64,000 nucleotides of DNA, taken from NCBI RefSeq assembly GCF_004765785.1, contig NZ_SBIT01000008.1, positions 186,001 to 250,000 of the forward strand. The letters run 5' to 3'. The notes under the pieces are model-generated. The model was not told the DNA's origin. It did not search any database and saw only the letters and a list, made by a program, of their open reading frames with translations. Positions 19,546-63,456 of the stretch are shown in pieces. Position 1 is the stretch's first letter; each line of letters opens with the position of its first letter. A program made the position numbers and the translations under genes. This stretch comes from Halorussus ruber (GTDB lineage: Archaea > Halobacteriota > Halobacteria > Halobacteriales > Haladaptataceae).

Positions 19546-19619
19546 CTCGTGAGCGAAGCGAACGAGGGCTCGGAAGTCGCAGTCCGCGCAGGCCGGAGGC
19601 CGAGCAGAACCGTCTTCCG

Positions 19620-28753: not shown

Positions 28754-28982
28754 CGTCGAGAATGCGCGGGACCGGATTTGAACCGGAGCAAGACGGTCCG
28801 GGATGCTCGCTTCGCTGTCGTTCGAGAGAGCGAAGCTCTCTCGTGATGACGAAAATCTCCGATTTTCGAACCACGCTTCCGGGCGTGCGACTTGCAGGGT
28901 TCAACTCCTCGTCCGATTTTCGACGTTCACGGAGTGGCGAGCACACGCTACGCGGTGCTCGCCGAGTTGTTCACGTCGAAAA
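28754..28982 (-). repeat. tRNA-Leu 3'-end duplication and intervening element
   Basis: A 33-base stretch (28754-28786) repeats 28974-29006, the 3' end and T-arm of tRNA-Leu, with one mismatch. Between are several hairpins (e.g. GAGAGAGCTTCGCTCTCTC on the minus strand) and an inverted T-arm-like GGAGTTGAACC (minus strand, 28898-28908). It shares GGAGTTGAACCCTGC-AAGTC and TTGCTCCGGTTCAAATCC with the region after tRNA-Thr. The rest of 28531-28753 is AT-rich upstream sequence of the peptidase gene. Confidence 0.7.
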
Positions 28983-29067
28983 TGCGCGGGACCGGATTTG
29001 AACCGGCGGACCCCTACGGGATAGCGTCCTAAGCGCTACGCCGTTGGCCTGGCTTGGCAACCCGCGC
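28983..29067 (-). tRNA. tRNA-Leu (anticodon UAG)
   Basis: The minus strand begins GCGCGGGTTGCCAAGCCAGG and ends TCCGGTCCCGCGCA; the acceptor stem GCGCGGG/CCCGCGC is perfect. Anticodon loop CTTAGGA gives UAG, reading CUA. The long variable arm (CTATCCCGTAGGGGTCC) is that of a class II tRNA. CCA is not encoded. Length 85. Confidence 0.92.
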
Positions 29068-38994: not shown

Positions 38995-39489
38995 ATGGTC
39001 GCCATCGAACGCGGAAACATCGGAGACGTCGACGCGGTGACCGACATGTGGGTCGACCTCGCCGAGGGCCAGCGCGAGTTCGGCTCGCACCTCTTCGCCG
39101 ACGGCAATCGCGCGACGGTCCGCGAGGCCATCGCCCGGAACGCGGTCGGCGACGGACTGCTGGTCGCTCGTGAGAAACGCGAGGACGACCGGACCGAAAT
39201 CGTCGGCTTCGTCACCTTCGGCGTCGAGTCGGACGGCTACGACCAAGACGTGACCCGCGGCGTCGTCCGGAACATCTACGTCGAACCCGACCGCCGCGGT
39301 GACGGCATCGGGTCGGCCCTCCTCGACGCGGCGGAGACTCGACTCGCCGAGCGGGGCGCAGACGCCGTCTCGCTCGACGTGATGGCCGACAACGAGGACG
39401 CCCGGCGGTTCTACCGACGCCACGGCTACGCTCCGCACCGCGTCGAGCTGGAAAAATCGGTCGAAAGCGATACGCTCACAAAGGAGTAG
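38995..39489 (+). CDS. GNAT-family acetyltransferase
   Basis: 164 residues. The GNAT acetyl-CoA binding signature is seen as VRNIYVEPDRRGDGIGSALL near 96-115, with the C-terminal LDVMADNEDARRFYRRHGYA. It follows pgk by 32 bases. The substrate (small amine or protein N-terminus) cannot be told. Confidence 0.85.
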   Translation: MVAIERGNIGDVDAVTDMWVDLAEGQREFGSHLFADGNRATVREAIARNAVGDGLLVAREKREDDRTEIVGFVTFGVESDGYDQDVTRGVVRNIYVEPDRRGDGIGSALLDAAETRLAERGADAVSLDVMADNEDARRFYRRHGYAPHRVELEKSVESDTLTKE

Positions 39490-39508: not shown

Positions 39509-39582
39509 GCCAGGGGAGCTTGGGCGGTTCAAGCACCCGACTTGTAATCGGGAGTTCGTGGGTTCAAATCCCACCCCTGGCT
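39509..39582 (+). tRNA. tRNA-Thr (anticodon UGU)
   Basis: Acceptor GCCAGGG/CCCTGGC is perfect. Anticodon stem CCCGA/TCGGG with loop CTTGTAA gives UGU. T-arm GTGGGTTCAAATCCCAC is standard. Discriminator T; no encoded CCA. It lies 19 bases after the GNAT stop. Confidence 0.93.
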
Positions 39583-39713
39583 TGGTGGTCGCGCCACTCC
39601 GGCGCGACCGATTCGCTTCTGTAGGATTTGAACCCTGCCAGTCGCAGGCTCGCGCAGGGAGTGAAACGACCGAGCAAGAACGTCTGGCTCCGGTTCAAAT
39701 CCACCCCTTGCTT
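39583..39713 (+). repeat. tRNA-Thr 3'-end duplication and intervening element
   Basis: 39692-39713 (GGTTCAAATCCACCCCTTGC + TT) repeats the T-arm and 3' end of tRNA-Thr with one deletion and one mismatch. An inverted T-arm GGATTTGAACC is at 39624-39634, giving an 11-bp inverted repeat with 39692-39702. The interior carries GTCGCAGGCTCGCGCAGGGA and CGACCGAGCAAGAACGTCT (39667-39685); the latter is identical to 63359-63377 beside the other tRNA-like gene. Confidence 0.75.
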
Positions 39714-63138: not shown

Positions 63139-63226
63139 GGAAGGGTAGCTCAGTGGTAGAGCTCCATCGGTGCGTCCGATGGTATAGCCTTACAGGCTTC
63201 GCGTGGTTCGACTCCCGCCCCTTCCG
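63139..63226 (+). tRNA. tRNA-like gene, isotype unclear
   Basis: Acceptor GGAAGGG/CCCTTCC is perfect, and D-arm TAGCTCAGTGGTAGAGC is standard. After it comes a 7-bp stem CCATCGG/CCGATGG with loop TGCGT, then an extra hairpin AGCC-TTACA-GGCT. The T-loop TTCGACT is normal, but its stem pairs only if one T in GCGTGG is bulged. It could be an intron-containing gene, a divergent tRNA or a decaying copy. Anticodon not assigned. Confidence 0.5.
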
Positions 63227-63456
63227 CTCGCGCCGTTTTTCAGCGAGGCGTTTCATCGCCGAGCGATAGCTACGGCGCGAGCGGAAGATAGCGCGGAGTC
63301 GAGCAGACGAGTCGCACGCTCGCGCAGGGAGCAAGCGAGCGGCGAAGCCGCGAGCGAGCGACCGAGCAAGAACGTCTCGGCGGTCGCAGGTGAGCAGAGC
63401 GAACCTGCGAGCAGGGAGGAGCTTTGCTCCGACTGCGAGTTCGACTCCCGCCCCGC
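63227..63456 (+). repeat. tRNA 3'-end duplication and intervening element (third locus)
   Basis: 63439-63454 (GTTCGACTCCCGCCCC) is an exact copy of 63206-63221 in the tRNA-like gene. An inverted T-arm GGAGTCGAGC lies at 63295-63304. The interior shares AGTCGCACGCTCGCGCAGGG (63310-63329) and CGACCGAGCAAGAACGTCT (63359-63377) with the tRNA-Thr locus. It also holds long GCGAGCG-type palindromes. 63457-63666 is AT-rich promoter sequence without a gene. Confidence 0.75.

Follow-up and report, generated by a model that had tools for sequence, protein, structure and literature searches.

In Halorussus ruber and related haloarchaea, short repeated units lie 3' of many tRNA genes, and we interpret them, with moderate confidence and from sequence comparison, as non-coding hairpins at the DNA level: small non-autonomous repeats that would copy the ends of the tRNAs at which they sit and recombine through those copies. 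They resemble small DNA elements that are mobile or spread in tandem, rather than a working RNA. Three units lie in the window, by which we mean the whole 64,000-nucleotide stretch analysed (contig NZ_SBIT01000008.1, positions 186,001 to 250,000). Their parts, together with a further core copy, are as follows.

39509-39582 (+): tRNA-Thr(TGT), owner of the first unit (ARAGORN; Rfam RF00005, 59.5 bits)
39583-39623 (+): trailer with a hairpin (GGTCGCGCC...GGCGCGACC), the spacer between tRNA-Thr and its unit (fold z -2.95)
39624-39634 (+): inverted T-arm GGATTTGAACC, which matches the reverse complement of the T-arm of tRNA-Thr (GGTTCAAATCC) exactly
39635-39691 (+): conserved core hairpin of the Thr unit with a CCAG/CTGG stem (match to core model R1, 56.7 bits; covariation)
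39692-39713 (+): direct copy of the 3' end of tRNA-Thr, with T-loop plus acceptor strand (sequence comparison)
28983-29067 (-): tRNA-Leu(TAG), owner of the second unit (ARAGORN)
28898-28908 (-): Leu inverted T-arm GGAGTTGAACC, one mismatch
28785-28897 (-): Leu core hairpin, enlarged by nested hairpins (R1 match in L047; fold z -3.86)
28763-28784 (-): copy of the 3' end of tRNA-Leu, exact over 22 nt (sequence comparison)
63139-63227 (+): tRNA-Arg(GCG), owner of the third unit (boundaries per ARAGORN)
63295-63304 (+): Arg inverted T-arm GGAGTCGAGC, one mismatch
63305-63438 (+): Arg core hairpin with the shared 19-mer at 63359-63377 and extra nested hairpins
63439-63454 (+): exact 16-nt copy of the tRNA-Arg 3' end GTTCGACTCCCGCCCC, its acceptor end decayed
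19571-19619 (+): tRNA-distant copy of the core hairpin without T-arm flanks (G000:C6:205571-205619, 38.3 bits)

The interval 39583-39713 is made up of trailer, inverted arm, core and copy, and the same order recurs across the genome: tRNA, hairpin trailer, inverted T-arm, core hairpin, copy of the T-arm and acceptor strand, and a further trailer. A sequence-only reading of this interval had taken the right-hand GGTTCAAATCC... for part of a shared interior, which proved mistaken; a direct copy of the whole tRNA 3' end, comprising T-loop, 3' T-stem and acceptor strand, begins there. At tRNA-Thr this copy is slightly decayed, with one C deleted and one G changed to T, and the orthologous tRNA-Thr of the relative G006 has it exact. 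At tRNA-Leu the direct repeat runs 9 nt further into the trailer, with one mismatch there. The same reading had correctly noticed the 19-mer CGACCGAGCAAGAACGTCT common to the Thr (39667-39685) and Arg (63359-63377) loci, which has no third site anywhere in the window when up to 3 mismatches are allowed and exceeds chance (shuffle mean 0.07, no shuffle with two sites). The AGTCGCA-n-GCTCGCGCAGGGAG block is likewise real, common to both loci and beyond chance. That reading was right in the main, though incomplete, and some letters it quoted need correction: the Thr locus reads TTTGAACCCTGC and not GTTGAACCCTGC, and GGCTCCGGTTCAAATCC and not TTGCTCCGG....

Beside these features, the window core at 19571-19619 (+) (CGGAAGTCGCAGTCCGCGC...CCGTCTTCCG) sits among other short hairpins and has seven near-identical copies genome-wide, whose surroundings are, at a guess, PATE- or omega-RNA-like repeats. 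A 164-aa ORF (window 38995-39489, +) ends 20 bases 5' of tRNA-Thr and is, judged by reading its translation, a putative GNAT acetyltransferase.

Inverted T-arms are present 3' of all three window tRNAs, as had been proposed, and are exact only at Thr; those of Leu and Arg each deviate by one base from their own tRNA's reverse complement, and the three window loci are thus insufficient to establish that the arm follows its tRNA. We therefore draw on more units. Among 85 candidates in four genomes, a set that includes some noise and in which both arms are clear in 50, the 14-nt inverted arm matched its own tRNA at 10.0 on average against 9.09 for permuted tRNAs (sd 0.09, maximum 9.47 over 5000 permutations). 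Tracking also appeared in a genome of another family (G052; 11.3 versus 9.8, P 0.0002) and in one of another genus (G020; 9.6 versus 9.1, P 0.04). With these tests in the four congeners and in G052 and G020, the claim of tRNA-matched inverted ends holds, carried by 50-odd units in four genomes and by the genome from another family; arms that fail to follow their tRNA had been sought in other genomes, and tracking was seen instead.

The units are non-coding and mostly 100-240 bp in size. In inverted form the tRNA 3' end is copied over about 11-22 nt, less than in the direct copy, and in most units the span from inverted arm to T-arm copy is ~80-100 nt with complementary ends; a metagenome-assembled genome (L279) carries a complete 22-nt inverted tRNA 3' end, CGGGCACGATGGGATTTGAACC, left of the core. 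The direct copy is exact over at least 22 nt at many tRNAs. Its left boundary clusters at the T-loop edge (positions 50-53; -24 to -21 relative to the tRNA end), and its right boundary is variable, lying between 0, where the tRNA ends, and +45 or beyond. Two-unit tandems are common, the orthologous tRNA-Leu of Halorussus amylolyticus YC93 (L278) carries two units, and tRNA-Arg of G006 is followed by five tandem units with trailer types in the order A B B A' C, each closed by the identical exact 3' end. Tandem near-identical units, with a short N run in the assembly, also occur at a tRNA-Pro(CGG) (L067 and L068; G000:C10, about 203600-203840), a gene not picked up by the Rfam tRNA search.

Direct 3'-end copies, called at a score of at least 13 with arm and copy thresholds that are simple match counts, follow 18 of the 46 tRNA genes of H. 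ruber and, in three congeners, 16/45, 14/44 and 9/47; when the downstream sequence was reversed, none of the four genomes gave a copy. Among 30 tRNAs sampled per genome, copies were called at 16 in G052 and 15 in G020, which belong to two other genera, counts that include at least one non-unit each (a repeat inside a trailer; another complete tRNA gene), and at none of the 30 in a relative that lacks the core (G037). The core model R1 has 34 matches in the H. ruber genome, most at tRNAs and ~10 elsewhere without T-arm flanks, and matches in 48 of 59 relatives. Within the genus the units differ in presence at orthologous tRNAs: the orthologous tRNA-Thr carries a unit in G000 (H. ruber), G002, G006 and G007, but not in most other congeners. 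Downstream of tRNA-Phe, the unit of G002 has trailer TTTTCCTGCG, and its copy is succeeded by trailer TGATTTTGCG; in G000 it is TGATTTTGCG that directly follows the tRNA itself. The simplest reading of this difference is that one unit was lost exactly through recombination between the copies.

Core and ends appear to have separate histories. For 39 of 51 cores the nearest neighbour lies at a different tRNA, whereas trailers follow their locus (25/51 versus 1.8 expected). Because cores are common to different tRNAs while trailers are locus-bound, core and ends are decoupled, so the ends would have to be rewritten at each new tRNA. We also considered spread mainly within one genome and rejected it, since same-genome nearest cores were not enriched (12 versus 13.3 expected). 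The entry point can be placed at the T-loop by tRNA-Leu remnants in G002 (L267) and G006 (L265) that keep the 5' T-stem strand and are split by a hairpin at the T-loop. Both remnants are longer than usual, starting from the anticodon stem, and each is probably an attR remnant invaded later.

We thus propose a scheme in which a small non-autonomous hairpin repeat would enter a tRNA, or a copy of its 3' end, at the T-loop. DNA synthesis with the tRNA as template, through template switching or strand invasion, could then leave direct and inverted copies on the two ends of the repeat. Recombination between exact copies of 22-24 bp would multiply, exchange or remove units and leave the tRNA intact. 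The unit would probably have no RNA function, and the lack of a scar on the tRNA may be what allows it to persist. For copies away from tRNAs, examined for insertion into palindromes, pairing of a copy's own flanks exceeded cross-pairing marginally (7.04 versus 6.47, P 0.035) in a set that included two tRNA-linked loci. We found no mobilising enzyme, no excised circle and no exact empty site in a very closely related genome. The core pattern was absent from the viral contigs searched, and the unit had no match among plasmid and phage records. A shorter left-end pattern gave three matches in viral contigs, which were set aside as chance-like on inspection.

The nearest described system is the SMR-A class of small (short) mobile repeats in Haloquadratum walsbyi (HqIRS42, 43 and 55), which are ~110 bp, non-coding and have prominent inverted terminal repeats (PMC3119063). 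They occur in several copies per genome in hairpin-forming DNA, their mobiliser is enigmatic, and their insertion sites are palindromes near the ends of PATE and IS605-type elements, with no target duplication (PMC3119063). The likeness is one of description, and covers non-coding character, several copies per haloarchaeal genome, size and inverted ends (about 80-100 nt from arm to copy, with complementary ends). The units differ in lying at tRNA T-arms and in duplicating their target, since the tRNA 3' end is present in both direct and inverted form. As SMR-A cause no target duplication, we do not file the tRNA units among them.

The explanation that survives best beside our own, although we consider it unlikely, is by analogy that a tRNA-targeting tyrosine recombinase acts in trans on the T-arm, with the folded hairpin of arm and T-arm as an attC-like attachment site. 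The left boundary is fixed at the T-loop, in the usual type of archaeal attB region, the arrays are cassette-like, tandem and of mixed order, and either DNA strand is predicted to fold, when single, into a stable hairpin. Haloarchaeal islands that carry an integrase are flanked by tRNA 3'-end duplications (PMC3119063), and attL/attR sites of archaeal tyrosine integrases resemble our units in the direct 3'-end copy downstream of an intact tRNA gene (PMC8371274; PMC3119063). The units, however, are too short for an integrase gene and contain none, and they add the inverted T-arm, shared core and tandem arrays. Against such a recombinase, the core occurs also at sites without a T-arm, and each tRNA sequence would require a separate att specificity.

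A more specific form, which we regard as quite unlikely, would be a haloarchaeal integron-like system with T-arms as entry sites, in which a recombinase working on a folded single strand adds, shuffles and removes cassettes that bear tRNA 3' ends, always restoring the tRNA, and in which the core is re-used by copying the end of each new tRNA. The units share with the attC arrays of archaeal integrons tandem cassettes, imperfect palindromic ends around a variable centre and one fixed site (PMC9668308), but unit cassettes are gene-free, and the integron integrase (TIGR02249) scored above cut-off in 0 of 21 genomes, where other tyrosine recombinases score weakly. Among bacteria, the rtT repeats of the Escherichia coli tyrT locus lie downstream of a tRNA and contain part of its 3' end; they are known from one locus and are not known to have an inverted T-arm.

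An improbable reading is that the unit is a selected RNA element, in which a readthrough transcript folds a second T-arm that insulates the tRNA, stops transcription or yields a small RNA. The large hairpin that had been proposed is indeed predicted, as RNA at Thr (-36.2 kcal/mol, z -4.1) and Leu (z about -3.9), so this rival has a stable fold (z about -4) on its side; as DNA the unit also folds at z about -4, with both strands alike. The core stems contain 105 double changes in 826 cells and are 98.9% paired, a covariation that no shuffle equalled and that far exceeds slid controls, figures that rest on an alignment fitted to the structure. Such strong covariation could mean selection on structure. 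Units also always lie on the sense strand of the tRNA, as the search was built to find them. Against RNA function, the core stems are nearly free of G-U pairs, with about 2/817 compared with 47/1211 in the acceptor and T stems of tRNAs (P = 7e-9, uncorrected for relatedness). Where the right copy is mutated in the outer arms, the left arm is tRNA-like in 15 cells and copy-like in 5; in 100 cells it is the left arm alone that diverges from the tRNA. Maintained RNA pairing would predict the opposite, so this three-way comparison of tRNA, left arm and right copy gives no support to arms kept paired by selection; both look like drifting tRNA copies that decay independently.

Large nested insertions are also tolerated in the Leu and Arg units of the window, and most tRNAs, as well as many orthologues of filled ones, have no unit. 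The processing decoy and terminator suggested earlier from the single locus were accordingly dropped once most tRNAs proved empty; in addition, the copy lacks the 5' acceptor strand, and arm mutations are mostly uncompensated. The third suggestion, an integration intermediate, fared better, insofar as an origin related to recombination or integration is plausible given T-loop-bounded copies, tandem arrays and presence/absence polymorphism. Rfam 15, searched under strict and permissive settings, gave a match at gathering score for tRNA-Thr only, the rest being tRNA-like chance hits, so the unit itself has no match.

The core-stem pattern of double changes with almost no G-U pairs can be given by template switching during replication, which makes inverted copies and double changes in one step (PMC8794818). 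Both this process and quasipalindrome mutagenesis (PMC7202029) resemble what we see in their reverse-complement copies and one-step compensatory changes. Template switching is, however, a mutational mechanism and not a repeat family, and would not by itself explain the shared core.

Ordinary attR remnants of lost integrated viruses or plasmids are very improbable as an explanation. Direct tRNA 3'-end repeats and some longer ordinary remnants (L136; tRNA-Leu of G002 and G006) exist, but such remnants would leave unexplained the inverted T-arm, the shared core, the tandem arrays and the short regular sizes seen at as many as half of the tRNAs. L136 itself, at tRNA-Thr of G050, repeats the 3' half of the tRNA directly over a greater length and abuts the gene, as from a lost integrated element.

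We found no earlier description of these units in the open-access literature searched, although in some haloarchaeal genomes as many as half of the tRNA genes sampled carry them. For annotation, this means that copies of tRNA 3' ends in these genomes need not signal lost proviruses. If our preferred reading of tRNA-end-copying DNA repeats is true, the units would be a natural record of a small DNA hairpin that copies its target on both ends while an essential gene stays unharmed. They would then bear on how small mobile repeats without a transposase move, and on whether covarying stems must imply a functional RNA.

A second type of hairpin (ACCCTCGC...GCTCRG) was observed at L283, L287, L288, L297 and L306 in G052, and in the second copy of L010 in G000. 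It lies at the 3' edge of the T-loop, immediately 5' of TCCC and the acceptor-strand copy (boundary -14).
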